A DNA stretch of 64,000 nt. Origin: Baylisascaris procyonis. Lineage: Eukaryota; Nematoda; Chromadorea; Rhabditida; Ascarididae. Location: assembly GCA_037389465.1 (NCBI GenBank), contig JAZARR010000072.1:75001-139000 (forward strand). Direction: 5' to 3'. Shown in pieces: positions 13,538 to 55,802 of the stretch. The position numbers and the translations under genes were made by a program. Below the pieces are notes generated by a model. The model worked only from the letters and a program-made list of their open reading frames with translations, did no database searches and was not told where the DNA came from. Every line of letters begins with the position of its first letter. Position 1 is the stretch's first letter.

Positions 13538-13882
13538 TGTGGCGAATCTAGTCGGGAAGAATGCTTACTGAGACAAAGACGCTGCTTATATAGTACCAAT
13601 AATTTGCATATTATAATCAAAATTAAGGCGACAACAACACTTCATTCAATGTGGGTATGTAAAATGGTCACAATAAGGACAAAATAAGTACTTTCACTGG
13701 TAGTAATATTTTATTTCTTTTCCTTTCTTTGAATTAAGCATTCCTTTGAATAATTAATGACAACAGCAATACATTCAAACATCTGCAATCATTTGGACTA
13801 TCATTACAATAGCATACATTTTGAATCATTCACATGTAAACAATTTGAAGGTGATTCGCAGGATTGGTTCGCGTTTGCGACA
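13538..13882 (-). repeat. 3' LTR of BEL copy A (composite)
   Basis: In element orientation it runs from TGTCGCAAACGCG to ATTCGCCACA. It contains a TATATAAGCAGCG promoter-like box. Bases 13,667-13,882 match the 3' LTR of copy B almost perfectly, whereas 13,538-13,666 carry many substitutions and lack the 26-bp internal duplication of copy B. The LTR is therefore joined from two sources at about 13,667. Confidence 0.88.
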
Positions 13883-14604
13883 TTCCGGGGGGGAAAGGGT
13901 AGGGGGAAGAAATTTATTGAAGTTTTTGGGAAAATTTTGTTTGATGAGGTTTTGTATTTGTGAGTCACCTTCGGTAGCGAATGAGACATTATTAAAGAAT
14001 TGAAAACTACAAACGCTACAGAAGCGGTTGAAAATGGGTTGATCGTGGATGGTGTGAAATGTGCATGCTAATCACTGTCCAAGAAATGCACAGAATTCCT
14101 TTAACGCAATATTGTGTTGATAGTCGGATGCAGATAAAGCTGCAGATGATAACCACGCGAAATATTGCGAAGAGTAGATAGATGATGGACAGAGATAGAT
14201 AAATTATGAGTCTTAATAGGATAAGAGCTCCTTTAGGGACGCATCGAGGATTTTCAATAAACGTCAGGCAGAAATAATAATGGATTAGCCCGCGAAATGG
14301 TCTTGGTGAGCACTCTAGTTTGATGCGCTTTGATACAAGACCTGATTTTCAAGCGTAATCGTAACTGTGTAGGATTTTATCAAGACTTCTCTAGGGAAAA
14401 TTAAGGTTTTGTCATTATCAGGATTATCGCGATATGTGCAATATGGTGCGGAACAAATTTTCATGATATTGAGTAAGTGGAGATGATAGTAACTCCTCGT
14501 TGATTACGTTCCGTAGTACAATTTTCACATTGAGTATGTTTTATTGTGTCATATTTTTGTCCAAAATAGATTTGTCCAAAAATACATGGGAATCATACCC
14601 CAAA

Positions 14605-15249
14605 CTAATGTTGGAATTTCTTCGTTACGAATATAGTGTGCCATTTCGTCAGTTTGGTTGAAACAGAATTGCATTCTCGTTTTATAGCAGATGTTATTCT
14701 TACAAACGTCCGATGCATTTGTTCTTGTGCATTTCCTACGCGCATTTTGCTTTCGTGCAAGTTGTAGATTCTGTACGAAAATGTGCGACTATCAAAATGT
14801 TGAATTTGTGCGATAGCGGTTTCCTGAGGTACTGAATCATACTTTGGGTCAAGAGTAAGGGCACATAACCAATTCGAGTTCTTTATGTTCGTTAAATTTA
14901 TTGTTTGTGATTTCATTATTTCCCTTAATTCTCCATTGTAATAGTCAGAGGCCCATATTGGACAGGAACCTCTTGGCCTACGCATGCCATTCTCACGTAG
15001 ATGTGTATGAAGGCACTGCTTGGGTTCCTAACACACTTGTCCCTCGATTGTCCCTTTTACTAAAAGTCTACTTGATATGCAACTGGGGAAATATAGGAGA
15101 GTAGTCCATTTTTGACGGGGACCACCTCTCTCTTTTTGGTTTCCACATATTATTTGAAAAAGTGTAAGTATACTCAGGATGGAAAAGGCACATTTGGCAG
15201 TAGATGAACATGAAATTCTCGATGAGCCATGTTTTATTTCATTGTTCAT
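14605..15249 (-). pseudogene. Envelope-like remnant of BEL copy A
   Basis: Mirror image of 54,065-54,709 in copy B. Two open pieces follow the integrase: one with a signal-peptide-like hydrophobic stretch (CAFSILSILTLFQIICG), the second of 126 codons with NLTN and scattered cysteines. The position after integrase suggests an envelope remnant, but I recognise no family motif and it is much shorter than the TE2 or TE4 envelopes. Confidence 0.4.
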
Positions 15250-18200
15250 TTGTTTCGATCATATCTCGTGGTTGACCATTAATGTCATCCTTGGTTGGTT
15301 CTTCCACTTCCAAAGGATATAGTAAGTTAATGGGTCGGTTGAGACGATGCCCATTCGGCATTTGAGCAACTGCAGTCCGAATTTCTTTGTCTGCACTGAC
15401 GTGGAGACGTATTATTTGGCCTAATTTCCATGCTCCACGATGCAGGTTTTCGTCACGAACTAGTACAATTTGTCCAACCTTCGGAATCTGTCGTGCGATG
15501 ACGCGGGGATGTCGATGGAACATTGTTTGTTTTTCTCTTAAGCTAAGGAGATATTCTCCTGACTAGACTTTCCAGAACTTGTCCACGTTATGAGTATTTT
15601 TTCTCCAGATGTCTACTAATCTCTGTCTGTTGTCAGGATCATATTCTGGATCTTCATAGTCTTCTTCTAATGAGGGAAACCCATTTTTGGCGTTGTGAAG
15701 CAAAAAGTCGATCGGTCTCAATACCTTGAATTCCACTTCTTCATTTACGTAGGCTAATGGGCGAGAATTTATTGCCGCTTCTGTTTCGATCAGTAACCTA
15801 TTAAAGTCATCATATTGAAGAACTTTTCTGCCAAGCATTTTTCTCATGGAGCATTTCACTAATCCAATGAGTCCTTCATAAAATCCGCCCTTCCAAGGAG
15901 CCATTTCTGTAATAAATTTCCATTTGATCCCCTTTCTTGCGAGGTATTCTACAGAGTCGTCATCGTGGATAATGTTGTCCCATACATCGTTTAGAGTTTT
16001 CGCTGTTGCTGTGAACTGCGTTCCGTTATCAGAGAAAATCGTTTCTGGCCATCCTCTTCTGCTGATAAATCGCCTAAAACATTGAAGAAATTAGAGGGCG
16101 GATAAGTTGTTGACTATCTCCATGTGAATGGCTCTGGTTACCAAACATTTGAATGAGCAAACCCAAATTTTGGTTTTGTTAGCTACAATTTTAACTATTA
16201 CGGGCCCCCAGTAATCAGCTCCTGTATTCTGGAATGGTCGTGCTTGTTGAGTACGTTCCTCGGGGAGTGGAGGCATAGGTGGCAGTGCAAATGGTCCTCC
16301 TTGAAATCGTTTGCATTTGTTACATGAGTTAATTACTCTCTTGACGGCAGCACGCCCTCTAGGAATCCAAAACGTTTGTCGAACATCCGTTGTATGTGAA
16401 ACACCGCGTGGAAGAGGCGATTATGACTTTCAAGAATGATTAGATCAGTCACAGCACTCCTTGAAGGTAGCAGAATTGGGAATTTCGTATTTTCGGATAA
16501 ATTAGCAGTGGACGAGCGGCCGATGCATCGTAAAATTCCGTTGTTATCAATTTTAATCCCGAGAGCGTAACAGAGATGTTTCTTATTGTTCCGAAGTGCT
16601 TCGTAAACGTCATGGTAGTATCCCCTTTGGAATTCTCGACAAATAGCAAAGGTCGCTATTCGTATATCATTGCTAGAGAAACAGCTTAAATCAGCCGGCA
16701 TATGGCCTAGAAAGGTAACTTTCTCTGCTATTTTATTACGTAGCGCTGGATTTAGCTTGTCCCAGACCTTCACTTGCAGAAACTTTAGACAGCGGGAAGC
16801 TATTCTTTGTAGCATACCGAATGAAGACACATGAGAACCTTCTGTAAATAAGATTCCTCGGATTTCCACGCTAATGGCTTCGGCGGCGATCTCGATCTCT
16901 TCTTTAAGAGCTCCTCGGGCAATGTCTTCTTGGGTGGTTGGCCACTGATCGGAGGATAGCGCCAACTACGAGGGTCCGTTCCACCAAAGTTTACTGAGTG
17001 AAAGTTCTTCAGGTGTCATGCTCTCGTAGCGATGTCCGCTGGGTTGTGTGATGAAATGACGTATTTGAAATGAATATTCTTCGCGTGTTTAATTTCTTGT
17101 GTTCGATTAAAAACAAATGTGGGAAGTATTTTGGTGGTGTTTAGCCATCGTAAAACGCATTTCGAATCTGTCCACAAAAAACGTTCGAGCGTTGGCAATT
17201 GAAGTTGTTCAGAGACAAATATTAATGCTCGCGTCCCGATTAGTACAGCCATCAATTCCAGATGAGGGATCGTTATTTCCTTCGTTGGAGCGAGTCTAGT
17301 TTTGGCGTAGAGAAGTTTGCAAGTTATCCCTTTCGTCGAGTTGCTGCGAAGGTAGACGCACGCTGCGTACCGTTTTACGGAGGCGTCAACAAAACAGTGT
17401 AATTCTATTGCGGCGTCAACTTGTTCGACGATTTTTCGAGGAATTTTAAATGAGGGGTGTTTTTGCCAAGTTTGGTAGAGCGCTTCCCATTCTCGGTGGA
17501 TATCTTCTGGTATCTGATCATCCCATCCATTTTTTCTTTTCCACATGTCTTGAATAAGGCTTTTAGCCTTGAAAACGGCGGGTGAAAGATAGCCGAGAGG
17601 GTCAAATGTGGAACCTAATGTCTGTAATACGGACCTTTTACTGATCTGTTCAGTATTTTGAGGACAGCGTATCTGAAGCTGGATTTCATCGGAGATCGGG
17701 TTCCATGGGATTCCTAAAAACTTCATTGCAGTAATTTTTGCTCTATCTTCCTAGCGGTGGGACCATTGGAGGTCCATTCTCTTTTCATTGAGATTTGATG
17801 AAAAATTTGTTTTGCTTCATGGTAGACGTGAATTGCTTCATGAGAATTTTCTGTTCCTATCATTACATTGTCTACATAAATACCTTGTAATATCTGTTGT
17901 GCGGTTGTTGCTCCGATTGTCTGTAAATGATGTCTGAGGTGGCGTTGAGAAGAAAGGGGCTGCTGACTATTCCAAACGGAACTCTCTCAAAGCGGTAATG
18001 TTCAATATTCTCCGTAGAAAACGCTTTATGAAGTTCCTTGAGCCAGAGAAACCTCGTGACGTCCCGATCTGCCGGGTTAAGCTGAAGCTGTAGAAAGGCT
18101 TTCTCCACGTCAGCGAGCAAGACGATTGATTTTGTACGAAAGCGGAGAAGGAGACCGCAGAGATCAGGCAGAAGTGACGGCCCAAGCAATAAACATTCGT

Positions 18201-19475
18201 TGAGACTGCTGCTTCTTTGGCTGGTTTTGGCGGATGCGTCATGTACGATCCGCATCTTCGTTGTCGATTTGTCGAGTCTAATAATTGGATGATGTGGTAA
18301 GTAATAAATAATTGGTCCATCTGCTTTGTCTGCCTCGCACCTTTCGATGATTTGTTGTGAGAGTTGTTCTTTGATGGTATCATCATATTTGCGCAGGAGA
18401 TCGCTGTTATCGCTCAGCCGTTTTATCAAGAATTTCAGTCTTCCGACGCTTAAATAATAGTTGTCACGGAGAGGAAATCTGGGTGAAGTGTTTCTCCATG
18501 GCCACGAAACAGTGTAGCGTCCATCTGTCAGAGAGGCAGATTTGTAAAATTGGCGTACCGCTTCGTCGTCATCCCTTTGATCTGACGGATCTGTTATACC
18601 AATAGACTCGAGATTCCACTATTGGTCTAGATTTAATTCTTCGTGTCTGACAGGAGAGTTGCACGATACGGAGGTATTGTTTTCTTCATTGATTTCTAAA
18701 TTTCTCTTTTGCGACATCGCTCTTCCGGTGAGAATAGGTCCAAACTTGGTTGGCACGAGAAAGAGATGAGGAGTCAGCTTTGTTATGGGCTGTGCTTCAA
18801 GGGTATCCCACATAAGGTCAGCTCCAATGAGGATATTTGGCGTCACATTTTCGTATTTTATAATGGGTTGTTGGGAGGCTTTTTCTTCAACAAAGGCGTG
18901 GACATTCCCTTGTTTCAAACACGACATTAATGCAGGCACTGTATTCAGCTCCACTCTTTTATACTCTCCGTTTTTATATTGTAGTTGGATGCTCACTACT
19001 TTAGAATCATTTTTTTTGTGGCTTAGCGGAAAGAAATGTTGACTCAGACAAAGTTTGTTCTTGTGTTATTTCTAGTTGAAGCCTTTTTGCGAGCCTTTCT
19101 GTGATAAATGACATCTGACTACCACAATCGAAAAAAATAACTGCCATCGCTGCTTTCATATTAGAAGGATTGCGCGCGGTTGTTTGAGCAGTTAACAATA
19201 AAACGGGTGTATTGCGAGGTTCTACTTCAGTATCTAACAGTGCTTGAACCAGGGTAGAATTATCGGAATTCTGAGGAAGTAGCCCTTCAGTTTTCTTCAG
19301 TTTTCTGTGAGCTTATAGCATGCGATCCGTTATCAGTCATAAATGAATGGACAGGAATGACAGATTGTTTTTTCTTTTTACTATATGCGTTAGGTAAGGG
19401 AACTGGTCTTGGTAACTCGGCTGTGTTCTCAATTTGATTGTTCGTGGGAAGATTCCTTGGATATGTGAAATTCAT
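15239..19475 (-). pseudogene. Pol (protease, RT, RNase H, integrase) of BEL copy A, broken
   Basis: Reading the minus strand, the pieces are protease (19,198-19,007, DCGSQ active site), RT (18,429-17,872, catalytic YVDNV at 17,878-17,864 in another frame), RNase H (17,726-17,016) and integrase (16,965-15,239). The breaks match those in copy B, so they arose before the duplication. Differences seen from copy B include an Arg instead of Trp in the TKMxIVHDAS segment of RT and an Ala instead of Thr at the start of the integrase piece. Confidence 0.85.
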
Positions 19476-19574
19476 GTGATTGCTATAAGCTCTTTGATTA
19501 CTTGTATTTCTTGTGTTGTTAAAGTCATGCTTGTTCGTGAAGGTAAGTTGTTTATTTTCAGTACTTGCGATGTA

Positions 19575-20944
19575 TTACGCGCAAAGTGCTCTGTTATGAT
19601 GCTGTCCACAATGAATGCACGTTCGTGAATATGTGCACTGTTGGGCAGAATGTGTATTTGAGGGACATTTGTGGCATAGGTTTAAAATACGCATACGTTG
19701 GAGTCTTTGGTCCACTGTTTTGTAAACAACGCATGCTTCATTCAGATGGGCCCCTGGCAGAAAGCGCAAGGATGCAGTTCACGATTCCGTGTTTCCCGGT
19801 GTTTTTGTAAAATGGAAAAGGTTTCATTTCGGATTGGTGAAGATACATCGACGTGATCTTGAATCTTGTTATTTGCAGGGGAGTTTTGAATTATATCTTA
19901 CGCTTCCTCCCTAATACTGACTACTCTGTCGAGGGCCTTAAGTAGTTCGTCAGTTTGCCAAATCTCATCGGCCGTCTTTTCTCCGCCCAGCTCTATGAGA
20001 AGAGCGTGAGGTGATTTTTCTTGGATAATGAGAGCAATGCTTGTTTGATTTATGCGTTCGCCAAGCGCTCTTAATTGGCGACAACATTTTTCAGCTGCTT
20101 CGAGGGTATTACGGAAATCCTTTGTGCGCATAGTACATGTAGGAAGGAACCTTTCGCAACTGATTATACCAAGAGAGTTTTATAGTATTTGGGTTTCCAA
20201 AGCAACGCTTGATTATGTCCACAGCTTCTAAATAATGGGAAGAGGTGACCGACAAGCCTTCTATGGCGGCATGGGCACGTCCTTTTAGGCATCCAAGTAA
20301 ATAATGATACTTTTGTACTTGAGATATGTTTTGTCCGTGGACTGCATCACGAAAGAAATCCCAAAACTCATTAAAGTGCAATGAATCACCTGCGTAAGTT
20401 GGCAGGTGTTGCGTTGGTAAGGCAAGTCCGGGTGTTGCTGGCGGGTTGGTCGTATTATATTGCTGGACGTTGCCGCTGGCGTTGACTGTGTTGAATAGTT
20501 TTCGATGTCGAATATCGTCGTTTGCATAAGCTGGCAATTGTTGTGTTGCTGAAGTAAATCTGGGTGTTGCTGGCGGGTTGGTTGTGTCGTATTCTGGGAT
20601 GTCGGCGTTGATTGTGCTGAATTGCGGTCTGTGTTGAATCTTGTTATCCGCATAAGCTGGCAACTTTTGCGTTGGTGAAGTAAGTCCGGGCGTTGCTGGC
20701 GGGTTGGTGGTATCGTATTGCTGGATGTTAGCACTGTCGTTGATTTGTTGAATGGGCGGTCTACGTTGCATTTCGTCGTTTTGTACGGTTTCTTCTTTAC
20801 AGTTACTACCATGTTGACACCACTTCGATTTTTGTCGTATTCCCGTAGTTGTTGATCGACTTCATCGAGAGTTTCTCGAAGTTCCTCTAGTTTCTCTTGG
20901 CTTTCATGCCATATCTCGAGGAAGTTCCCTTCACTTCGCGTCAT
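19575..20944 (-). pseudogene. Gag of BEL copy A, broken by frameshifts
   Basis: Mirror of 48,370-49,739. It has the N-terminal charged coiled-coil-like segment, three tandem TTNPPATP repeats, a Pao-type capsid region (HFNEFWDFFRDAVHG) and zinc knuckles (CHKCPSNTHSAQQC, CIHCGQHHNRALC), in three different frames. It differs from copy B by a Val/Ile change in the third repeat. Confidence 0.82.
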
Positions 20945-21026
20945 TTATTCGTACAGTTCTTCTTCTTCTTTGGCGCGATTAGGAGGGGACGTTTGAATCA
21001 ATTGCGCCCATTCTTCATTTCTTTTA

Positions 21027-21319
21027 TTCTCCAGATGTCTACTAATCTCTGTCTGTTGTCAGCGTCATATTCTGGACCTTCACAGTCTTCTTCTAATGAG
21101 GGAAACCCATTTTTGGCGTTGTGAAGCCAAAAGTCGATCGGTCTCAATACCTTGAATTTCACTTCTTCATTTACGTAGGCTAATGGGCGAGAATTTATTA
21201 CCGCTTCTGTTTCGATCAGTAACCTATTGAAGTCATCATATTGAAGAACTTGTCTGCCAAGCATTTTTCTCATGGAGCATTTCACTAATCCAATGAGTTT
21301 TTCATAAAATCCGCCCTTC
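21027..21319 (-). pseudogene. Duplicated integrase fragment between PBS and gag, copy A
   Basis: A 293-bp piece of the integrase 3' half (GGFYEKLIGLVK to RQRLVDIWR) sits directly after the primer-binding site, upstream of gag. It is the mirror of 47,995-48,287. Being present in both copies, it predates the inverted duplication. Confidence 0.88.
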
Positions 21320-21334
21320 ACCTCGGGCACCAGT

Positions 21335-21677
21335 TGTGGGGAATTTCGTGCGGAGAATGTTTATTGAGACAAAGACGCTGCTTATATGGTGGCAATGACA
21401 TGCATATTACAATCAGAATTAGGGCGTTATTAACATTACGTTTAATATGGGTATGTAAAACAGTCACAACAAGGACAAATTAGGTAACTTCACTGGTAAC
21501 AATATTTCATTTCTTTTCCTTTCTTTGAATTAACCTTTTCTTTGAACAACTAATGACAACAGCAATACATTCAAACATTTGCAATCATTCAGATATCATT
21601 ACAGCAGCATAGATTATGCATCGTACATATGTAAACAGTTTGAAGGTGAATCACAGGATTGGTTCGCCTTTGCGACA
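21335..21677 (-). repeat. 5' LTR of BEL copy A
   Basis: 343 bp, the mirror of 47,637-47,979, with a TATAAGCAGCG box and an AATAAA signal close to its 3' end in element orientation. The satellite starts immediately outside at 21,678, with ACAAC as the target-site base group. Confidence 0.88.
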
Positions 21678-21682
21678 ACAAC

Positions 21683-24600
21683 CGTAGAAAAAACTGCATG
21701 TTTGTGTTACAAGTTTCGTGTCTCTGTGATGCATTCCTTGATCGCTGCAGAGAGCGATGGTTCTTACAGCAAAGGTAAATCATGCCCACCAATTGAGCTG
21801 AAATTTCACAGAGCAAAATTATTTGCCGTTCAGAGCACAACTGTGGAAAAAAAACCGCATGGTTCTGTCACCAGTTTTGGAGCCTCTGTCATGCGTTATT
21901 TGATCGCTGCAGAGGGCGATGGTTCCTACAGCAATTGTACTCGCTGCGCATCAGCTGAGCTGAAATTTTGCAGAGGAACATTATTTGGCGTTGCGAACCC
22001 AACTGTAGAAAAAAAAACTGCGTGTTTGTGTTACAACTTTTCGTGTCTCTGTGATGCATTCCTTGATTGCTGGAGAGAGCGATTCTTCCTAAAGCAGCAG
22101 CACCTCCCGCGCATCAACTGAGTTGAAATTCTGCAGAGGAACTTTATTCGGCGTTCCGAACACAACCTTGGAAAAAACTGCATGTTGGTGTTACAAGCCT
22201 TCGTGTCTCTGTGATGCACTATCGGATCGCTGCAGTGGGCGACGGTTCCTACAGCAATTGTACTCGCTGCGCATCAGCTGAGCTCAAATTTTGCAGAGGA
22301 ACATCATTTGCCGTTCTGAACTGTACGGTAGAAAAAAACCGCATGTTTCTATTGCAGGTTTGAGAGTCTCTGTGATGCGCCATTCGATCGGTGCAGAGAG
22401 CGATGGTCCCCCTAGCAATTGTGCTTCCCGCGCATCAATTGAGCTGAAATTCTGCAGAGGAACATTATTTGGCATCTTGAAGTGAACGGTAGCGAAAAAC
22501 CGCATGTTTCTGTCAAAAGTTTTCTTGTTTCTATGATGCCCATCGATCGGTGCAGAAAGCGATTGTCCCCCCAGCAAACGTACTTCGTTCTCATCAATTG
22601 AGCGGAACTTCTGCAGAGGAAAACTATTTGGCGTTCCGAACTCAACGGTAGAAAAATACTGCATGTTTGTATTACAAATTTTTGAGTCTCTGTGAAGCAT
22701 TAGTGGATCGCTGCAGCGAGCGATGGTTCCTACAGCAAGAGTGCTTACTGCTATTCAAGTGAGCTGAAATTCTGCAGATTAACAGTATCTGGTGTTATGA
22801 ATCCAACGGCAGAAAAAAATGCGTGTTTCCATCACAAGTTTCCTTGTCTCTGTGATGAAAAATTAGATCGCTGCGGAGAGCGATGGTCCCCTGGCAAACG
22901 CGCCTCCTGCGCATCAACCGAGCTGAAATTCTGCCGAGGCACATTACTCGGCGTTCTGAACTGAACGGTAGAAAAAACGGCAAGTTTCTATAAAAAGTTT
23001 CCGAGTCTGTGATGCATCATTGGATCGCTGCGGAGAGCGATGGTCCCTCCAACAAGCGTGCTTCCTGCGCATCAATTGAGCTGAGATTTTGCAGAGGAAC
23101 ATTATTTGGCGTTCTGTAGTGAACGGTAGAGAAAAACCGCGTGTTTCTGCCACAAATTTTCTAATTTCTGTGATGCACCATTGGATCGGTGCAGAGAGCG
23201 GTGGTCTCCCGGGAAACGTGCTTAGTGCGCATCAAGTGAGCTGAAATTTTGCAAAGGAACATTATTTGGCGCTCTGAGAACAACGGCAAAAAGCCTCATT
23301 TTTCTGTCACAAGTTTTCGAGTTTCTCTGATGTATTATTGCGTCGCTCCAGAGACCGATGGTTTGAACAGCAAAGGTGCCACCTGCGCATCAACTGAGTT
23401 GAAGTTCTGCAGAGGAAGATTATTTGGCGTTCTGAACTCAACTGTAGAAAAAAACTGCATGTTTGTATTACAAGTTTTCTTGTCTCTGTGATGAAAAATT
23501 AAATCGCTGCAGAGACCGATGGTCCCCCTGGCAAACACGGTTCCTGCTCATCAGCTGGGCTGAAATTTTGCAGAGGAACATTACTTCGCGTTCTGAACTC
23601 AACTGTAGAAAAAAACCGCATATTTCTATCACAAGTTTTCGAGTCTCCGTGATGCACTATTGGATCACTGCAGAGACCGATGGTTCCTATAGCAAAAGTA
23701 CCTCCTGCGCATCAACTGAGCTGAAGTTCTGCAGAGGAGCATTATTTTCGTTCTGAAGTGAACGATAGAAAAAAAGCCGCATGTTTCAATCACAGGTTTC
23801 CGAGTCTCTGTGATGCATTATTGGATCGCTGCAGATAGCGATGGCCCCCCAGCAAACGTGCTTCCTGTGCATCAGCTGACCTGAAATTTAGCAGAGGAAC
23901 ATCACCTGGCGTTCTGAACTGAAGAGTAGAAAAAACCGCATGTTTCTATCACAAGTTTTCGAGTCTCCGTGATGCACTATTGGATCACTGCAGAGACCGA
24001 TGGTTCCTATAGCAAAAGTACCTCCTGCGCATCAACTGAGCTGAAGTTCTGCAGAGGAGCATTATTTTCGTTCTGAAGTGAACGATAGAAAAAAAGCCGC
24101 ATGTTTCAATCACAGGTTTCCGAGTCTCTGTGATGCATTATTGGATCGCTGCAGATAGCGATGGCCCCCCAGCAAACGTGCTTCCTGTGCATCAGCTGAC
24201 CTGAAATTTAGCAGAGGAACATCACCTGGCGTTCTGAACTGAAGAGTAGAAAAAACCGCATGTTTCTATCAGAAGTTTTCGAGTCTCCGTGATGCACTAT
24301 TGGATCGCTGCAGAGACCGATGGTTCCTATGGCAAAAGTGCCTCCTGCGCATCAACTGAGCTGAAGTTCTGCAGAGGAGCATTATTTTCGTTGTGAAGTG
24401 AACGATAGAAAAAAAGCCGCATGTTTCAATCTCAGGTTTCCGAGTCTCTGTGATGCATTATTGGATCGCTGCAGATAGCGATGGCCCCCAGCAAACGTGC
24501 TTCCTGTGCATCAGCTGACCTGAAATTTAGCAAAGGAACATCACCTGGCGTTCTGAACTGAGGAGTAGAAAAAACCGCATGTTTCTATCACAAGTTTTCG

Positions 24601-25631: not shown

Positions 25632-26061
25632 TGTGGCGAATCGCGAGTACATTCATGAAAGCTCATGCCGTCATGGCGACTCGCTGGCGTCGTTGAATAG
25701 GAAAAGACCTTTAGCCGTCTCAGCGGCGCCAGCTAAGATGGACAGCCGATGCCCCTGCACCGGAAACGAAACAAAGCTAAAAGGAAACATGGCCTAGAAA
25801 AGGAGGCGAGAGGCCGGATCGGAAATGGTCAACGTAGTCGAAGGCGGAGTTGAGCAAGGGGATATATGCAGCCCAAGCTCAGTTCTGTCGTTCGCGTGCT
25901 AGCCAACGGCCACAAAGTGGCCTTCTACAGTGCTTCGCCTTTCGTTCGCCTTCAGTGCTTCGCCTTTCGTTCTACCCCGCTTCCACCTCAACGTTGAAAT
26001 TACTGAACGTAATTGCTTTGTAACCCTTTCAAGTAAGCTGACCCATCTCTCGTTCAGTACA
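25632..26061 (+). repeat. 5' LTR of TE2 (430 bp)
   Basis: TGTGGCG...AGTACA, bounded by TSD TCAAG on the left and by the PBS on the right. It contains a GATATATGC box (possible TATA element) that is missing from the 3' LTR, and about two copies of the 25-bp CTTCGCCTTTCGTTCGCC minisatellite unit. Confidence 0.93.
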
Positions 26062-26081
26062 TGGGGGCTGAAGCCAAATCG
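26062..26081 (+). other. Primer-binding site of TE2
   Basis: TGGGGGCTGAAGCCAAATCG starts at the base after the 5' LTR. A TGG start at this position is the usual complement of a tRNA 3'-CCA end. The first bases resemble the PBS of the Gypsy element TE3. Confidence 0.7.
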
Positions 26082-26096
26082 TAACCGTGAGCATCA

Positions 26097-37816: not shown

Positions 37817-37820
37817 ACCC

Positions 37821-40147: not shown

Positions 40148-40256
40148 CGGAGCCTAGTGACCCAATTGAATTAAGAGTCACACGCACAGAAGCAGCCCAG
40201 CAATATGAGGACGTAGTCGGCAATAAACTGGTAGTAAAATTGCTAGGTGATGGGGT

Positions 40257-40775: not shown

Positions 40776-40787
40776 AACGATCATGAC

Positions 40788-42550: not shown

Positions 42551-42563
42551 GAACGGTGAGCTA

Positions 42564-45020: not shown

Positions 45021-45153
45021 TATGTTTTCTTTCGTGACTTGACCGGTGTTGTTTGTAACTTACATTCTTTTGATCATGTTTTATGATGTTTATCGTTCGT
45101 TGACTCTGTTATATGTATGAACGCTCGGGGCGAGCTTTTGCGACCCCCAGGCA
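45021..45153. other. Short non-coding spacer before the TE3 3' LTR
   Basis: 133 bases with no reading frame. The last bases before the LTR (CGACCCCCAGGCA) do not form a clear polypurine tract; GGGGCGAG further upstream is the only purine-rich run. Confidence 0.5.
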
Positions 45154-45500
45154 TGTAACGATTTTGATCGTTATGTAAATCGATCATGATGGTACAGCAG
45201 CGGGATTACCTCATTGTATATCGTGTACTATGTGTTGCTCTATTAACTATCGTCTTGATACTCTGAGATGGTATATAAGGGCTGTCATTGCCCAGTGTGG
45301 CCATTATTATTGTCATCCTTGTTGTAAGCGTGCCTCGTCGTGTGGAGTGAGGGTGCGAGACTGAGCCTGAGGGTCGTCGTCGTGCCGCCGATTGAGGTGC
45401 TCGCGTGGCCGAGTAGGGCCGCTTCGATTTAATAAATTGTTTGTTTCCAACGGCTGTTCGACGAGAAATCGGGGGGCCCGAAGGAGGACCGGGCCTTACA
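45154..45500 (+). repeat. 3' LTR of TE3 (347 bp)
   Basis: Same start (TGTAACGATTTTGATCG) and end (GGGCCTTACA) as the 5' LTR, with a cluster of differences in the CGTCGT-rich part around 45,350-45,400. It is followed by the TSD CAGAG. Confidence 0.94.
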
Positions 45501-47636
45501 CAGAGACATCAATGCTTGTACTACAAACATGCAGTTTTTTCTATAGTTGAGTTCAGAACGCCAAATGATGTTTCACTGCAGAATTTCAGCTCAATTGATG
45601 CGCAGGAAGCACGTTTGCTGTTGAGACCATCGCTCTCTGCAGCAATGTAATGGGGCATCAGAGAAACTAGAAAACTTCTGACAGAAACATGCTGTTGTTT
45701 TTCTCTACCGTTCACTTCAAAACGCCCAACAATGTTCATCTGGAAAATTTCAGCTCAACTGGCGCGCAGGAAGCACGTTTGCTGAGGGGACCATCACCTT
45801 CTACAGCGATCGAATGGAGGATCACGGAGACCCGTAAACTTGTGATAGAAACTTGCGGCTTTTTTCTACCGTTCAGCTCAGGACGCCAAACAATGTTCCT
45901 CCGGAAAATTTCAGCTCAGTTGATCCGCAGGAGGCAACTTTGCTGTAGGAACAATCGCTCCCTGCAGCGATCAAATAACGCATCACAGTGACTCGAAAAC
46001 TTATAATACAAACATGCGGTTTCTTCTATCGTTCACTTCAGAGCGCCAAATAGTGTTCCCCTGAAGAACTTCAGCTCAGTTGATGCGCAGGAAGCACGTC
46101 TGCTTGTGGGACCTTCGCTCTCTGCAGCGATCCAATGCGCGTCACAGAAACTCCAAAATTTGCAATAGAAACGTGCGGTTTCTTTATCGTTCACTTCAGG
46201 GCGCGAAATGGTGCTCCCCTGAACAACCTCGGCTCAGTTGATGCGCAGGAGGTACCTTTGCTGTAGGATCCATCGCTCTCCGCAGCGATTTAATGGTTCG
46301 TCACAGAGAACCGAAAACTTGCAATACAAACATGCGGCTTTTTTCTACAGTTGAGTTCACAACGCCAAGTAATGTTCTTCTGCAAAATTTCAGCTCAATT
46401 GATCAGCAGGAAGCACGTATGCTCGTCGGACCATCAGTCTCTGCAGAGATTTAATTGTTCTTCACAGAGACCCGGAAACTTGTGAAAGAAACTTGCGGTT
46501 TTTTTCTACCGCTCAGTTCAGAACGCCAAGTAATGTACCTCAGCAGAGTTTCTCCACAGTTGATGCGCAGGAGGCATCTTTGCTGTAGGAACCGTCGCTC
46601 TCTGCGCGATCAAAGAATGCATCAGAGATAGGCGAAAATTTGTGACGGAAACATGCGGTTTTTTCTACCGTTGAGTTCGGAACGCCAAATAATGTTCCTC
46701 TGCGAAATTTCCGCTCAGCTGATGCGCAGGATTCACGTCTGCTTGGGGACCATCGCTCTCTGCGGCGATTGAATGGTTCGTCACAGAGACCCGGAAACTT
46801 GTTATAGAAACCTGCGGTATTTTTCTACCGTTCAGTTCAGAACGCTAATTGGTGGTCCTCTCCAGAATCTCAGCTCAGTAGATGCGCAGGAAGTACCCTT
46901 GCTGTAGGAACCATCGCTGTCTGCAGCGACAAACAGTGCATCACAGATACACGAAAAGTTGTGGTACTAACATGCAGTTTTTTTCAACAGTTGTGTTCGG
47001 AACACCAAATGATGTTCCTCTGCAAAATTTGAGCTCAGCTGATGCGCAGCGAGTACAATTGCTGTAGGAACCATCGCCCACTGCAGCGATCCGATAGTGC
47101 ATCACAGAGACACGAAGGCTTGTAACACCAACATGCAGTTTTTTCCAAGGTTGTGTTCGGAACGCCGAATAAAGTTCCTCTGCAGAATTTCAACTCAGTT
47201 GATGCGCGGGAGGTGCTGCTGCTTTAGGAAGAATCGCTCTCTCCAGCAATCAAGGAATGCATCACAGAGACACGAAAAGTTGTAACACAAACACGCAGTT
47301 TTTTTTCTACAGTTGGGTTCGCAACGCCAAATAATGTTCCTCTGCAAAATTTCAGCTCAGCTGATGCGCAGCGAGTACAATTGCTGTAGGAACCATCGCC
47401 CTCTGCAGCGATCAAATAACGCATGACAGAGGCTCCAAAACTGGTGACAGAACCATGCGGTTTTTTTCCACAGTTGTGCTCTGAACGGCAAATAATTTTG
47501 CTCTGTGAAATTTCAGCTCAATTGGTGGGCATGATTTACCTTTGCTGTAAGAACCATCGCTCTCTGCAGCGATCAAGCAATGCATCACAGAGACACGAAA
47601 CTTGTAACACAAACATGCAGTTTTTTCTACGGTTGT
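45501..47636 (-). repeat. ~160-bp satellite array, reverse orientation, right block
   Basis: About thirteen reverse-oriented monomers between TE3 and BEL copy B. From about 47,004 to 47,636 the sequence is nearly identical (inverted) to 21,678-22,310, because it lies inside the large inverted repeat. Left of 47,004 the two arms are only related in the way any two monomers are. Confidence 0.92.
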
Positions 47637-47979
47637 TGTCGCAAAGGCGAACCAATCCTGTGATTCACCTTCAAACTGTTTAGATATGTACGATGCATAA
47701 TCTATGCTGCTGTAATGATATCTGAATGATTGCAAATGTTTGAATGTATTGCTGTTGTCATTAGTTGTTCAAAGAAAAGGTTAATTCAAAGAAAGGAAAA
47801 GAAATGAAATATTGTTACCAGTGAAGTTACCTAATTTGTCCTTGTTGTGACTGTTTTACATACCCATATTAAACGTAATGTTAATAACGCCCTAATTCTG
47901 ATTGTAATATGCATGTCATTGCCACCATATAAGCAGCGTCTTTGTCTCAATAAACATTCTCCGCACGAAATTCCCCACA
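47637..47979 (+). repeat. 5' LTR of BEL copy B (343 bp)
   Basis: Starts TGTCGCAAAGGCG and ends ATTCCCCACA. It has CATATAAGCAGCG (about 47,925) as a TATA-like box and AATAAA at 47,949-47,954, 26 bases before its end, so the R region would be short. Confidence 0.9.
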
Positions 47980-47981
47980 AC

Positions 47982-47994
47982 TGGTGCCCGAGGT
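47982..47994 (+). other. Primer-binding site of BEL copies A/B
   Basis: TGGTGCCCGAGG begins two bases after the LTR end; the mirror in copy A is at 21,332-21,320. It has the TGG start expected for pairing with a tRNA CCA end. The integrase fragment begins immediately after it. Confidence 0.7.
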
Positions 47995-48287
47995 GAAGGG
48001 CGGATTTTATGAAAAACTCATTGGATTAGTGAAATGCTCCATGAGAAAAATGCTTGGCAGACAAGTTCTTCAATATGATGACTTCAATAGGTTACTGATC
48101 GAAACAGAAGCGGTAATAAATTCTCGCCCATTAGCCTACGTAAATGAAGAAGTGAAATTCAAGGTATTGAGACCGATCGACTTTTGGCTTCACAACGCCA
48201 AAAATGGGTTTCCCTCATTAGAAGAAGACTGTGAAGGTCCAGAATATGACGCTGACAACAGACAGAGATTAGTAGACATCTGGAGAA
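47995..48287 (+). pseudogene. Duplicated integrase fragment between PBS and gag, copy B
   Basis: 293 bp that match the integrase core and linker at 53,421-53,713 at all but 11 positions and without any indel (about 96% identical). It encodes GGFYEKLIGLVK to RQRLVDIWR, including the catalytic Glu motif of integrase but no start of its own. It is read through from the PBS and ends in unrelated sequence (ATAAAAGAAATGAAG). It has no plausible role here as an enzyme. Confidence 0.92.
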
Positions 48288-48369
48288 TAAAAGAAATGAA
48301 GAATGGGCGCAATTGATTCAAACGTCCCCTCCTAATCGCGCCAAAGAAGAAGAAGAACTGTACGAATAA

Positions 48370-49739
48370 ATGACGCGAAGTGAAGGGAACTTCCTCGAGA
48401 TATGGCATGAAAGCCAAGAGAAACTAGAGGAACTTCGAGAAACTCTCGATGAAGTCGATCAACAACTACGGGAATACGACAAAAATCGAAGTGGTGTCAA
48501 CATGGTAGTAACTGTAAAGAAGAAACCGTACAAAACGACGAAATGCAACGTAGACCGCCCATTCAACAAATCAACGACAGTGCTAACATCCAGCAATACG
48601 ATACCACCAACCCGCCAGCAACGCCCGGACTTACTTCACCAACGCAAAAGTTGCCAGCTTATGCGGATAACAAGATTCAACACAGACCGCAATTCAGCAC
48701 AATCAACGCCGACATCCCAGAATACGACACAACCAACCCGCCAGCAACACCCAGATTTACTTCAGCAACACAACAATTGCCAGCTTATGCAAACGACGAT
48801 ATTCGACATCGAAAACTATTCAACACAGTCAACGCCAGCGGCAACATCCAGCAATATAATACGACCAACCCGCCAGCAACACCCGGACTTGCCTTACCAA
48901 CGCAACACCTGCCAACTTACGCAGGTGATTCATTGCACTTTAATGAGTTTTGGGATTTCTTTCGTGATGCAGTCCACGGACAAAACATATCTCAAGTACA
49001 AAAGTATCATTATTTACTTGGATGCCTAAAAGGACGTGCCCATGCCGCCATAGAAGGCTTGTCGGTCACCTCTTCCCATTATTTAGAAGCTGTGGACATA
49101 ATCAAGCGTTGCTTTGGAAACCCAAATACTATAAAACTCTCTTGGTATAATCAGTTGCGAAAGGTTCCTTCCTACATGTACTATGCGCACAAAGGATTTC
49201 CGTAATACCCTCGAAGCAGCTGAAAAATGTTGTCGCCAATTAAGAGCGCTTGGCGAACGCATAAATCAAACAAGCATTGCTCTCATTATCCAAGAAAAAT
49301 CACCTCACGCTCTTCTCATAGAGCTGGGCGGAGAAAAGACGGCCGATGAGATTTGGCAAACTGACGAACTACTTAAGGCCCTCGACAGAGTAGTCAGTAT
49401 TAGGGAGGAAGCGTAAGATATAATTCAAAACTCCCCTGCAAATAACAAGATTCAAGATCACGTCGATGTATCTTCACCAATCCGAAATGAAACCTTTTCC
49501 ATTTTACAAAAACACCGGGAAACACGGAATCGTGAACTGCATCCTTGCGCTTTCTGCCAGGGGCCCATCTGAATGAAGCATGCGTTGTTTACAAAACAGT
49601 GGACCAAAGACTCCAACGTATGCGTATTTTAAACCTATGCCACAAATGTCCCTCAAATACACATTCTGCCCAACAGTGCACATATTCACGAACGTGCATT
49701 CATTGTGGACAGCATCATAACAGAGCACTTTGCGCGTAA
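48370..49739 (+). pseudogene. Gag of BEL copy B, broken by frameshifts
   Basis: ATG at 48,370 follows a TAA and opens a charged, coiled-coil-like N-terminus (ESQEKLEELRETLDEVDQQL). The frame then changes near 48,540 to one with three tandem repeats of 42-44 codons containing TTNPPATP and LPxYA, and the Pao capsid region (LHFNEFWDFFRDAVHG, LLGCLKGRAHAAIEGL). After 49,183 a further frame carries EAAEKCCRQLRALGERINQ. Zinc knuckles (CHKCPSNTHSAQQC, CIHCGQHHNRALC) end the region; a first one is split by a frameshift near 49,555. Confidence 0.84.
48591..48930 (+). repeat. Three in-frame tandem repeats in the BEL gag
   Basis: AACCCGCCAGCAAC begins at 48,609, 48,735 and 48,867 (spacing 126 and 132 bp, both multiples of three). 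Each unit encodes TTNPPATPxxTxxTQxLPxYA; the last runs on into the capsid start. The mirror in copy A is 20,384-20,723. Confidence 0.88.
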
Positions 49740-49838
49740 TACATCGCAAGTACTGAAAATAAACAACTTACCTTCACGAACAAGCATGACTTTAACAACA
49801 CAAGAAATACAAGTAATCAAAGAGCTTATAGCAATCAC

Positions 49839-50695
49839 ATGAATTTCACATATCCAAGGAATCTTCCCACGAACAATCAAATTGAGAACACAGCCGAGTT
49901 ACCAAGACCAGTTCCCTTACCTAACGCATATAGTAAAAAGAAAAAACAATCTGTCATTCCTGTCCATTCATTTATGACTGATAACGGATCGCATGCTATA
50001 AGCTCACAGAAAACTGAAGAAAACTGAAGGGCTACTTCCTCAGAATTCCGATAATTCTACCCTGGTTCAAGCACTGTTAGATACTGAAGTAGAACCTCGC
50101 AATACACCCGTTTTATTGTTAACTGCTCAAACAACCGCGCGCAATCCTTCTAATATGAAAGCAGCGATGGCAGTTATTTTTTTCGATTGTGGTAGTCAGA
50201 TGTCATTTATCACAGAAAGGCTCGCAAAAAGGCTTCAACTAGAAATAACACAAGAACAAACTTTGTCTGAGTCAACATTTCTTTCCGCTAAGCCACAAAA
50301 AAAATGATTCTAAAGTAGTGAGCATCCAACTACAATATAAAAACGGAGAGTATAAAAGAGTGGAGCTGAATACAGTGCCTGCATTAATGTCGTGTTTGAA
50401 ACAAGGGAATGTCCACGCCTTTGTTGAAGAAAAAGCCTCCCAACAACCCATTATAAAATACGAAAATGTGACGCCAAATATCCTCATTGGAGCTGACCTT
50501 ATGTGGGATACCCTTGAAGCACAGCCCATAACAAAGCTGACTCCTCATCTCTTTCTCGTGCCAACCAAGTTTGGACCTATTCTCACCGGAAGAGCGATGT
50601 CGCAAAAGAGAAATTTAGAAATCAATGAAGAAAACAATACCTCCGTATCGTGCAACTCTCCTGTCAGACACGAAGAATTAAATCTAGACCAATAG
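49839..50695 (+). pseudogene. Protease region of BEL copy B
   Basis: Two open pieces in different frames. The first (to 50,307) holds the active-site-like motif VIFFDCGSQMSFITERLA, with Cys where most retropepsins have Thr or Ser after the Asp. The second (50,318-50,695) holds ILIGADLMWD, the conserved protease C-terminal block of BEL elements, and ends in an in-frame TAG (50,693). A one-base slip joins them. Confidence 0.8.
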
Positions 50696-50698
50696 TGG

Positions 50699-51590
50699 AA
50701 TCTCGAGTCTATTGGTATAACAGATCCGTCAGATCAAAGGGATGACGACGAAGCGGTACGCCAATTTTACAAATCTGCCTCTCTGACAGATGGACGCTAC
50801 ACTGTTTCGTGGCCATGGAGAAACACTTCACCCAGATTTCCTCTCCGTGACAACTATTATTTAAGCGTCGGAAGACTGAAATTCTTGATAAAACGGCTGA
50901 GCGATAACAGCGATCTCCTGCGCAAATATGATGATACCATCAAAGAACAACTCTCACAACAAATCATCGAAAGGTGCGAGGCAGACAAAGCAGATGGACC
51001 AATTATTTATTACTTACCACATCATCCAATTATTAGACTCGACAAATCGACAACGAAGATGTGGATCGTACATGACGCATCCGCCAAAACCAGCCAAAGA
51101 AGCAGCAGTCTCAACGAATGTTTATTGCTTGGGCCGTCACTTCTGCCTGATCTCTGCGGTCTCCTTCTCCGCTTTCGTACAAAATCAATCGTCTTGCTCG
51201 CTGACGTGGAGAAAGCCTTTCTACAGCTTCAGCTTAACCCGGCAGATCGGGACGTCACGAGGTTTCTCTGGCTCAAGGAACTTCATAAAGCGTTTTCTAC
51301 GGAGAATATTGAACATTACCGCTTTGAGAGAGTTCCGTTTGGAATAGTCAGCAGCCCCTTTCTTCTCAACGCCACCTCAGACATCATTTACAGACAATCG
51401 GAGCAACAACCGCACAACAGATATTACAAGGTATTTATGTAGACAATGTAATGATAGGAACAGAAAATTCTCATGAAGCAATTCACGTCTACCATGAAGC
51501 AAAACAAATTTTTCATCAAATCTCAATGAAAAGAGAATGGACCTCCAATGGTCCCACCGCTAGGAAGATAGAGCAAAAATTACTGCAATG
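50699..51590 (+). pseudogene. Reverse transcriptase of BEL copy B
   Basis: Contains VSWPWRNTSPRFPLRDNY, IVHDASAKTSQRSSSLNE, LADVEKAFLQLQLNPADRD (first catalytic Asp) and FGIVSSPFLLNATS in one frame. The catalytic YVDNV (51,436-51,450) is in another frame, so a frameshift sits just in front of the active site. TKMWIVHDAS has Trp where copy A has Arg, which is the usual residue, so the change probably arose in copy B after the duplication. Confidence 0.86.
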
Positions 51591-52298
51591 AAGTTTTTAG
51601 GAATCCCATGGAACCCGATCTCCGATGAAATCCAGCTTCAGATACGCTGTCCTCAAAATACTGAACAGATCAGTAAAAGGTCCGTATTACAGACATTAGG
51701 TTCCACATTTGACCCTCTCGGCTATCTTTCACCCGCCGTTTTCAAGGCTAAAAGCCTTATTCAAGACATGTGGAAAAGAAAAAATGGATGGGATGATCAG
51801 ATACCAGAAGATATCCACCGAGAATGGGAAGCGCTCTACCAAACTTGGCAAAAACACCCCTCATTTAAAATTCCTCGAAAAATCGTCGAACAAGTTGACG
51901 CCGCAATAGAATTACACTGTTTTGTTGACGCCTCCGTAAAACGGTACGCAGCGTGCGTCTACCTTCGCAGCAACTCGACGAAAGGGATAACTTGCAAACT
52001 TCTCTACGCCAAAACTAGACTCGCTCCAACGAAGGAAATAACGATCCCTCATCTGGAATTGATGGCTGTACTAATCGGGACGCGAGCATTAATATTTGTC
52101 TCTGAACAACTTCAATTGCCAACGCTCGAACGTTTTTTGTGGACAGATTCGAAATGCGTTTTACGATGGCTAAACACCACCAAAATACTTCCCACATTTG
52201 TTTTTAATCGAACACAAGAAATTAAACACGCGAAGAATATTCATTTCAAATACGTCATTTCATCACACAACCCAGCGGACATCGCTACGAGAGCATGA
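51588..52298 (+). pseudogene. RNase H of BEL copy B
   Basis: 236 open codons with FDPLGYLSPAVFKAK (RT connection) and the four RNase H acids in LHCFVDASVKRY, PHLELMAVLIG, LWTDSKCVLRW and NPADIATRA. The domain itself looks complete; only its connection to RT and integrase is broken. It would degrade the RNA strand during reverse transcription. Confidence 0.85.
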
Positions 52299-52348
52299 CA
52301 CCTGAAGAACTTTCACTCAGTAAACTTTGGTGGAACGGACCCTCGTAG

Positions 52349-54075
52349 TTGACGCTATCCTCCGATCAGTGGCCAACCACCCAAGAAGACATTGCCCGAG
52401 GAGCTCTTAAAGAAGAGATCGAGATCGCCGCCGAAGCCATTAGCGTGGAAATCCGAGGAATCTTATTTACAGAAGGTTCTCATGTGTCTTCATTCGGTAT
52501 GCTACAAAGAATAGCTTCCCGCTGTCTAAAGTTTCTGCAAGTGAAGGTCTGGGACAAGCTAAATCCAGCGCTACGTAATAAAATAGCAGAGAAAGTTACC
52601 TTTCTAGGCCATATGCCGGCTGATTTAAGCTGTTTCTCTAGCAATGATATACGAATAGCGACCTTTGCTATTTGTCGAGAATTCCAAAGGGGATACTACC
52701 ATGACGTTTACGAAGCACTTCGGAACAATAAGAAACATCTCTGTTACGCTCTCGGGATTAAAATTGATAACAACGGAATTTTACGATGCATCGGCCGCTC
52801 GTCCACTGCTAATTTATCCGAAAATACGAAATTCCCAATTCTGCTACCTTCAAGGAGTGCTGTGACTGATCTAATCATTCTTGAAAGTCATAATCGCCTC
52901 TTCCACGCGGTGTTTCACATACAACGGATGTTCGACAAACGTTTTGGATTCCTAGAGGGCGTGCTGCCGTCAAGAGAGTAATTAACTCATGTAACAAATG
53001 CAAACGATTTCAAGGAGGACCATTTGCACTGCCACCTATGCCTCCACTCCCCGAGGAACGTACTCAACAAGCACGACCATTCCAGAATACAGGAGCTGAT
53101 TACTGGGGGCCCGTAATAGTTAAAATTGTAGCTAACAAAACCAAAATTTGGGTTTGCTCATTCAAATGTTTGGTAACCAGAGCCATTCACATGGAGATAG
53201 TCAACAACTTATCCGCCCTCTAATTTCTTCAATGTTTTAGGCGATTTATCAGCAGAAGAGGATGGCCAGAAACGATTTTCTCTGATAACGGAACGCAGTT
53301 CACAGCAACAGCGAAAACTCTAAACGATGTATGGGACAACATTATCCACGATGACGACTCTGTAGAATACCTCGCAAGAAAGGGGATCAAATGGAAATTT
53401 ATTACAGAAGTGGCTCCTTGGAAGGGCGGATTTTATGAAGGACTCATTGGATTAGTGAAATGCTCCATGAGAAAAATGCTTGGCAGAAAAGTTCTTCAAT
53501 ATGATGACTTTAATAGGTTACTGATCGAAACAGAAGCGGCAATAAATTCTCGCCCATTAGCCTACGTAAATGAAGAAGTGGAATTCAAGGTATTGAGACC
53601 GATCGACTTTTTGCTTCACAACGCCAAAAATGGGTTTCCCTCATTAGAAGAAGACTATGAAGATCCAGAATATGATCCTGACAACAGACAGAGATTAGTA
53701 GACATCTGGAGAAAAAATACTCATAACGTGGACAAGTTCTGGAAAGTCTAGTCAGGAGAATATCTCCTTAGCTTAAGAGAAAAACAAACAATGTTCCATC
53801 GACATCCCCGCGTCATCGCACGACAGATTCCGAAGGTTGGACAAATTGTACTAGTTCGTGACGAAAACCTGCATCGTGGAGCATGGAAATTAGGCCAAAT
53901 AATACGTCTCCACGTCAGTGCAGACAAAGAAATTCGGACTGCAGTTGCTCAAATGCCGAATGGGCATCGTCTCAACCGACCCATTAACTTACTATATCCT
54001 TTGGAAGTGGAAGAACCAACCAAGGATGACATTAATGGTCAACCACGAGATATGATCGAAACAAATGAACAATGA
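52349..54075 (+). pseudogene. Integrase of BEL copy B with DUF5641-like tail
   Basis: Pieces in two frames: the N-terminal region with ILxESHNRLFHAVFHIQR, the CNKCKRFQGG zinc half, the core with GADYWGPVIVK, IFSDNGTQF and GGFYEGLIGLVK (D, D, E), and the C-terminal part GAWKLGQIIRLH and RPINLLYPLE. In-frame stops interrupt it at 53,221 and 53,749. The segment 53,421-53,713 is the source of the fragment next to the PBS. Confidence 0.87.
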
Positions 54076-54709
54076 AATAAAACATGGCTCATCGAGAATT
54101 TCATGTTCATCTACTGCCAAATGTGCCTTTTCCATCCTGAGTATACTTACACTTTTTCAAATAATATGTGGAAACCAAAAAGAGAGAGGTGGTCCCCGTC
54201 AAAAATGGACTACTCTCCTATATTTCCCCAGTTGCATATCAAGTAGACTTTTAGTAAAAGGGACAATCGAGGGACAAGTGTGTTAGGAACCCAAGCAGTG
54301 CCTTCATACACATCTACGTGAGAATGGCATGCGTAGGCCAAGAGGTTCCTGTCCAATATGGGCCTCTGACTATTACAATGGAGAATTAAGGGAAATAATG
54401 AAATCACAAACAATAAATTTAACGAACATAAAGAACTCGAATTGGTTATGTGCCCTTACTCTTGACCCAAAGTATGATTCAGTACCTCAGGAAACCGCTA
54501 TCGCACAAATTCAACATTTTGATAGTCGCACATTTTCGTACAGAATCTACAACTTGCACGAAAGCAAAATGCGCGTAGGAAATGCACAAGAACAAATGCA
54601 TCGGACGTTTGTAAGAATAACATCTGCTATAAAACGAGAATGCAATTCTGTTTCAACCAAACTGACGAAATGGCACACTATATTCGTAACGAAGAAATTC
54701 CAACATTAG
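54065..54709 (+). pseudogene. Envelope-like remnant of BEL copy B
   Basis: Follows the integrase with an 11-base overlap. It has an initial hydrophobic signal-like stretch (FSILSILTLFQIICG) and then, in another frame, 126 codons with NLTN and few cysteines. No similarity to the TE2/TE4 envelope blocks is visible by eye. Envelope is the best guess from position alone. Confidence 0.4.
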
Positions 54710-55431
54710 TTTGGGGTATGATTCCCATGTATTTTTGGACAAATCTATTTTGGACAAAAATATGACACAATAAAACATACTCAATGTGAAAATTGTACTA
54801 CGGAACGTAATCAACGAGGAGTTACTATCATCTCCACTTACTCAATATCATGAAAATTTGTTCCGCACCATATTGCACATATCGCGATAATCCTGATAAT
54901 GACAAAACCTTAATTTTCCCTAGAGAAGTCTTGATAAAATCCTACACAGTTACGATTACGCTTGAAAATCAGGTCTTGTATCAAAGCGCATCAAACTAGA
55001 GTGCTCACCAAGACCATTTCGCGGGCTAATCCATTATTATTTCTGCCTGACGTTTATTGAAAATCCTCGATGCGTCCCTAAAGGAGCTCTTATCCTATTA
55101 AGACTCATAATTTATCTATCTCTGTCCATCATCTATCTACTCTTCGCAATATTTCGCGTGGTTATCATCTGCAGCTTTATCTGCATCCGACTATCAACAC
55201 AATATTGCGTTAAAGGAATTCTATGCATTTCTTGGACAGTGATTAGCATGCACATTTCACACCATCCACGATCAACCCATTTTCAACCGCTTCTGTAGCG
55301 TTTGTAGTTTTCAATTCTTTAATAATGTCTCATTCGCTACCGAAGGTGACTCACAAATACAAAACCTCATCAAACAAAATTTTCCCAAAAACTTCAATAA
55401 ATTTCTTCCCCCTACCCTTTCCCCCCCGGAA
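54710..55431. other. Non-coding 3' region of BEL copy B
   Basis: 722 bases without a credible reading frame. Just before the 3' LTR lies a pyrimidine-rich tract (CTTCCCCCTACCCTTTCCC..., 55,404-55,427), where a purine-rich tract would be expected on this strand. The mirror in copy A is 13,883-14,604. Confidence 0.6.
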
Positions 55432-55802
55432 TGTCGCAAACGCGAACCAATCCTGCGAATCACCTTCAAATTGTTTACATGTGAATGATTCAAAATGTAT
55501 GCTATTGTAATGATAGTCCAAATGATTGCAGATGTTTGAATGTATTGCTGTTGTCATTAATTATTCAAAGGAATGCTTAATTCAAAGAAAGGAAAAGAAA
55601 TAAAATATTACTACCAGTGAAAGTACTTATTTTGTCCTTATTGTGACTATTTTACATAATCATATTAAACGTAATGTTAATATCGCCATATTAAACGCAA
55701 TGTTAATATCGCCTTAATTCTGATTGTAATATGCATATCATTGCCACTATATAAGCAGCGTCTTTGTCTCAATGAACATTCTTCCCGACAAAATTCGCCA
55801 TA
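55432..55802 (+). repeat. 3' LTR of BEL copy B (371 bp)
   Basis: TGTCGCAAACGCG...TTCGCCATA, followed by TSD GTTGT. It has an internal tandem duplication of 26 bp (CATATTAAACGTAATG..., 55,661-55,712) not found in the 5' LTR, and many substitutions relative to it. Confidence 0.9.

Follow-up and report, generated by a model that had tools for sequence, protein, structure and literature searches.

A near-identical inverted copy of an old BEL/Pao retrotransposon in Baylisascaris procyonis satellite DNA, apparently made by recombination between repeats

The stretch of Baylisascaris procyonis DNA analysed here, hereafter the window, comprises 64,000 nucleotides, i.e. bases 75,001-139,000 of contig JAZARR010000072.1 (C72; 593,039 bp); it was compared with 272.8 Mb of genome sequence in 293 contigs, and coordinates are those of the window unless another contig is named. 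The window contains a large inverted repeat, the arms of which lie at 13667-22310 (arm A, plus strand, with the sense strand of its element being minus) and 47006-55647 (arm B, minus strand, with the element sense strand being plus). The repeat is present in the sequence far beyond chance, and its description as near-identical in the initial annotation is borne out by alignment of arm A with the reverse complement of arm B, which gives 8 substitutions and two 1-base indels over 8,644 bp. The substitutions are at 14091, 15904, 16962, 18252, 20468, 21631, 21736 and 22243, and the indels, both in runs of A, at 21847 and 22009 (all arm A coordinates). Because the arms carry indels, the mapping rule first proposed for them, x to 69,314-x, holds up to about 21,847 and breaks beyond, and the alignment moves the start of arm B from the annotated 47,004 to 47,006. 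Similarity departs just outside the arms, at 13,666 and 13,655, and from 22,311 onward.

The element carried by the arms is a BEL/Pao LTR retrotransposon, with Pao-type peptidase and reverse transcriptase (RT) domains, an LTR pair and a short target-site duplication; in arm A the Pfam matches to Peptidase_A17 (4.2e-52) and RVT_1 (4.4e-8) lie in separate frames. Some differences between the arms fall in codons. An Arg (A)/Trp (B) change sits in frame with RVT_1, and a Val (A)/Ile (B) change sits in frame with DUF1759, which we take to be gag-like, in agreement with the previous assignment of these changes to RT and gag, respectively. An Ala (A)/Thr (B) change is likewise present, at 16962/52352, but its placement in integrase is unconfirmed, the frame concerned (16333-16965) being without a Pfam match when the four element frames were scanned. 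The arms further differ by Met (A)/Val (B) at 15904/53410, and the change at 14091/55223 is silent. A tRNA-type primer site presumably adjoins the inner LTR of arm A, on the minus strand. Within the element, a 298-bp interior stretch (15597-15893) is repeated at 21022-21319, beside the inner LTR, with 96% identity, an arrangement that is mirrored in arm B.

A 2.5-kb piece of the element body (16,000-18,500) has 6 genome matches, all 6 candidates having been scored; these are the two arms, followed by sequences of 95, 90, 85 and 64% identity. The inner LTR with its satellite (21,500-22,310) has at least 83 genome matches (40 of 135 candidates scored), and among the matches listed 99% is reached by the two arms only. 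No third copy of the arms was found among the genome matches listed, in a search that skips very common words and so does not imply absence. Overall divergence between the arms is 8/8,642, i.e. 0.09% (95% interval 0.04-0.18%). The innermost 680 bp holds five of the 10 differences (p 0.0005, or 0.02 when substitutions alone are counted) and the arms are therefore unevenly diverged, a point against the copying proposed below. Six differences, those outside the satellite, were polarised against relatives elsewhere in the genome; two are derived in A (14091, which rests on one relative, and 20468) and four in B (15904, 16962, 18252 and 21631), as expected if both copies have aged.

The two sites at which the arms lie, here termed A and B, have different surroundings. 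Site B is a complete native BEL insertion with matched 5-bp target sites. Its element (47,637-55,802) has GTTGT on both sides, at 47632-47636 and 55803-55807 (both plus strand), and the unit phase of the surrounding satellite is continuous from flank to flank. The first of these target-site copies is inside the duplicated tract and the second outside it, so that their identity assigns the inner part of the tract to B. The inner LTR of B, assigned by LTR alignment, is at 47637-47979 and its outer LTR at 55432-55802, beyond which satellite on the minus strand (55803-56912) continues; this outer satellite is missing outside A. The outer LTR of B carries a 26-bp tandem duplication (55661-55713) without counterpart in A or in the other 18 aligned LTRs, one of which (C132b) is gapped there.

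At site A, by contrast, the flanking bases are GAGCG (outer) and ACAAC (inner), i.e. the target sites are unmatched, and the outer LTR is a chimera of two LTR lineages joined in exact register. LTR comparison and trees place its first 118 bp (13538-13655) in another LTR lineage than B; this part is 82.2% identical to the outer LTR of B but 92-94% identical to LTRs on contigs C170, C182, C42, C74 and C48. The remainder (13656-13882) is of B type, with 226 of 227 positions identical to B. The switch lies after 13,655 and, from the nearest differing sites, at most at about 13,703, in a block that is conserved between the lineages. When informative sites were compared with the C170 LTR, 2 were B-like and 16 foreign-like in part 1, versus 27 and 0 in part 2 (Fisher p 2.4e-10); across six comparison LTRs the Fisher p values range from 2.4e-10 (C170) to 2.4e-6, the weakest being that for C132a, with 11/17 and then 22/0. 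Outside A the sequence is not satellite, and a genome search with 13,300-13,520 (40 of 65 candidates scored) gave that stretch alone. In the wider region 9,000-13,500, the other matches listed are confined to a dispersed repeat at about 9,322-9,630 (40 of 272 candidates scored).

At its inner end, arm A comprises an inner LTR (21335-21677, from LTR alignment) and, copied along with the element, some 630 bp of satellite (21678-22310, plus strand), after which A's own satellite resumes. The break, 22,310/22,311, is inside the satellite unit at 22,170-22,323 (unit positions 8-161), and the unit phase is kept across it. Inward of the break, the next ten unit pairs in the register of the arms (offset 10) are 0.74-0.80 alike, the mean for left-right pairs generally being 0.79; thus, in this one genome, no raised unit similarity was found just inside the arms in that register. 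The earlier view that the arms are copies of a single insertion rather than two insertions is therefore sustained in part. The inner junction, i.e. the inner LTR, the five target-site bases and about 630 bp of satellite, is common to both arms, but the outer ends differ, B having matched target sites and satellite, and A a chimeric LTR, unmatched sites and non-satellite DNA.

The spacer between the arms contains satellite and two other LTR elements, as annotated, both on the plus strand. The first (25632-33795) has Pao-type peptidase and RT domains and target sites TCAAG/TCAAG, and the second (37455-45500) has integrase zinc-binding and rve domains and target sites CAGAG/CAGAG. The accompanying statement that the spacer is not palindromic requires qualification, as the satellite array itself folds back at 35,406/35,458. 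Its units are in plus orientation from 21,681 to 35,406 and in minus orientation from 35,458, and are cut at unit positions 131 and 134, respectively. The centre of the fold-back (35407-35457), at which the units reverse orientation, consists of about 50 bp of A+T-rich, self-folding sequence within 35380-35490. The 111-base centre folds on itself with a z score of -7.9, because the flanking inverted units require folding, and 35,390-35,475 had a genome match to itself only. Part of the left array (23602-24717) is a recently amplified tract of two units (about 320 bp), with units 97-100% alike to their best match.

The relationships of the outer and inner LTRs of the two sites (A_out, A_in, B_out and B_in) were investigated with a chosen set of 19 LTRs, four from the arms and fifteen from fetched loci, using separate trees for part 1 (n=17) and part 2 (n=18). 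Both trees omit B_in on account of its near identity to A_in, and the part 1 tree also omits C132b, which is mostly missing there. In the part 1 tree, A_out falls in another clade (98/96); grouping of A_out with B_out is rejected (p-AU 0.005), as is grouping of A_out with its own inner LTR, A_in (p-AU 6e-5). In the same tree A_in is sister to B_out (92/87, unstarred). In the part 2 tree, A_out and B_out are sisters (100/97), and the pair groups with C132b (91/74), apart from B's own inner LTR; a tree constrained to join the pair to A_in is worse by 14.8 log-likelihood units (p-AU 0.079), and so is not formally rejected. Two comparisons with the C74 LTR bear on the outer LTR part. A_out is about equally similar to it in both halves (92.4 and 92.5%), and B_out switches its leaning between its own inner LTR and C74 from 17/8 in part 1 to 5/18 in part 2 (p 0.0017); the same switch tested with C48 and C170 gives p 0.024 and 0.26, respectively. 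A scan of the arm against fetched relatives, aimed at an internal switch of affinity, gave no decisive one; similarity to C132 was 87.9-98.0% in windows starting at 13,538-20,038, then 82.7 and 76.8% in the next two windows, which lie over the gag repeat, and 83.0-93.6% thereafter.

For the inner part of the tract, the direction of copying, B to A, is firmly supported by the target site, the satellite phase and the sister relationship of B_out to the inner LTR in part 1. For the outer part of the LTR, the same direction has weaker standing; the coherence of A_out with C74, the switch in B_out and the part 2 grouping point to A as its source, and this part may have travelled from A to B, i.e. 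the exchange may have been two-way. A plain B to A transfer of the whole tract was hence lowered in our assessment, as the LTR similarities, site counts and trees allow the reverse for the outer LTR.

The locus combines LTRs of mixed lineage, an unmatched target site and breakpoints in register in homologous sequence, by which a product of ectopic recombination between LTR elements is recognised. The two breakpoints are LTR to LTR at the outer end and satellite to satellite at the inner end; together with the presence of matched target sites at B only, they fit ectopic homologous recombination better than a blunt inverted duplication. We propose that a BEL/Pao element would have inserted long ago at B, in the right-hand, minus-oriented half of the 160-bp satellite array, leaving GTTGT/GTTGT, and that locus A would already have had a related LTR adjoining the non-satellite DNA. 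Much later, ectopic homologous recombination would have copied about 8.6 kb into the left-hand, oppositely oriented half. An end at A may have paired with the LTR of B; synthesis would then have traversed the element and its inner LTR and run on through about 630 bp of flanking satellite before the new strand rejoined A's own satellite through homology. The outcome would be an inverted copy, produced by long gene conversion or break-induced copying. We regard such conversion-like copying, with the element native to B and two-way exchange counted as one of its forms, as probably the correct explanation, and infer a single event of this type.

An alternative is that a crossover between the inverted A and B LTRs inverted the intervening stretch, and that a second crossover, in satellite and between a chromosome with the inversion and one without it, later gave both places the same element end. 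Such a course predicts breakpoints in LTR and satellite, as observed, and an outer LTR at B that is native in part 1 and A-type in part 2, which is where the trees lean. It requires, however, two events, and if both arms carry the inner end of A, then the 5/5 target-site match, the satellite phase at B and the pairing of B_out with A_in (92/87) become coincidences; we thus regard it as unlikely. An assembly or library artefact, such that one arm would be absent from the animal, also appears improbable, judged from sequence alone. Oddities of assembly elsewhere, namely duplication of COX1 on contig C136 and same-score pairs of COX1-like matches on C80 and C81, speak in its favour, but the sequences joined are only 82% (LTR part 1) or 74-80% (satellite) alike. 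Identity at the outer switch extends over no more than about 50 bp, little for an overlap of long reads; an artefact would also need two joints, 8.6 kb apart, and each arm has its own derived states.

The fold-back of the array may be relevant to how A and B came together. Mirror-paired units are slightly more alike than expected from permutation (p 0.008 for the inner 8, 0.016 for 10, 0.011 for 12 and 0.004 for 22). The effect is small, the mean residual being 0.0141 in the mirror register versus 0.0136 at one other register, and the best mirror pair, at 92.3%, is equalled by one same-side pair. An older fold-back of the array is likely from the switch in orientation, and the unit similarities support it modestly. 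The arms themselves are not mirror relics of that fold-back, because A and B differ in distance from the centre (36 and 26 unit matches, respectively, with matches cut by the spacer elements counted as units) and because unit similarity immediately inside the arms (offset 10) is not raised. The folded array might, by inference, aid the pairing of A and B. A stronger form of this proposal, in which the array is a standing pairing device whose oppositely oriented halves repeatedly exchange, so mirroring elements, and the 8.6-kb arms are the latest product of continuing two-way conversion in a gene-poor nematode satellite palindrome, seems to us doubtful.

It is still less probable that A was the donor and that gene conversion moved the whole tract from A to B. 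The coherence of A_out with the C74 LTR in both halves and the grouping of B_out part 2 apart from B's own inner LTR are compatible with this direction, but the inner and outer LTRs of A form no pair in part 1, and the GTTGT match and satellite phase at B would be due to chance. Replication template switching with microhomology, giving a blunt inverted duplication, is the least probable of these processes; it typically yields inverted copies close to their source, as here, but microhomology does not demand that both joints be in register, as they are in LTR position and satellite phase. Two independent insertions are ruled out by the inner target site and the roughly 630 bp of satellite that both arms share, a mosaic formed during reverse transcription by the satellite in the tract and the unmatched target site at A, and a simple inverted segmental duplication by the differing outer flanks and an outer joint that is an in-register LTR chimera.

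With respect to conversion-like copying from B, the divergence of its LTR pair (K2P 0.135, compared with 0.065 and 0.068 for spacer elements 1 and 2, all over aligned LTR parts) permits a relative dating. Set against the 8/8,642 between the arms, this LTR divergence makes the insertion some 150 times as old as the copy. The nematode mutation rate is near 2.7e-9 per site and generation, and the copy may thus be some 10^5 generations old, a rough, order-of-magnitude figure which assumes no later conversion. The element appears to be a dead, old retrotransposon that acquired a mirror copy about 25 kb away by recombination between repeats.

Ectopic recombination between repeats is a known process, of which this locus offers another and unusually legible example. 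LTRs at different human loci are described as exchanging sequence by ectopic gene conversion and becoming patchworks of lineages (PMC4921805). The outer LTR of A is likewise a lineage patchwork, but the tract here is 8.6 kb long and lies inverted in the same contig, and it takes in most of an element and the satellite beside it. The lack of a matching target site is a criterion for inter-element recombination of LTR retrotransposons. In keeping with this, site A has LTRs of different lineages and an unmatched target site; a pair of LTRs from different subfamilies is elsewhere read as an annotation error or as possible inter-element recombination (PMC6298018). By contrast with such recombinants, the counterpart with its target site persists here, 25 kb away, and the event is therefore directly readable. 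Another parallel lies in Y-linked copies that undergo gene conversion and in mammalian palindromes (PMC6325706, PMC8794474). As in Y-chromosome palindromes, near-identical inverted arms flank a spacer in repeat-rich DNA; unlike those palindromes, the arms carry element frames rather than genes, and this one genome gave no evidence of repeated conversion. A literature search recognised no paper treating this locus, which is not proof of absence.

The wider significance is that a transposable element has apparently been multiplied by recombination rather than by transposition, and that counts of new insertions can mistakenly include copies made by recombination. Should the fold-back array indeed promote exchange, it would allow inverted-repeat pairing in satellite DNA to be tested in a natural setting.

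Several other features of the window and genome were observed. On the 42-kb contig C136, COX1 is present twice, 14,755 bp apart, and COX1-like matches with many stops occur on contigs among C80, C81, C198 and C219, with same-score pairs on C80 and C81; these duplicate and COX1-like matches are either nuclear mitochondrial copies or retained assembly duplicates. The C136 COX1 shares 92-96% identity with its five best protein matches, three of which are named (Rhabditida 94%, Litoditis 93% and Caenorhabditis briggsae 93%), so that it probably indicates a rhabditid nematode, provided that C136 is not a contaminant. At about 378.7-379.4 kb on C72, two LTRs of the same family lie side by side in opposite orientation. 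The left edge of the window (1-2241) is occupied by a second satellite, with a 178-bp unit in 12.6 copies and 98% matches. Beside the array on the right, a 1,257-codon open frame (57463-61236) has matches to DUF5641 and Integrase_H2C2 and a weak match to rve, and marks another LTR-type element.
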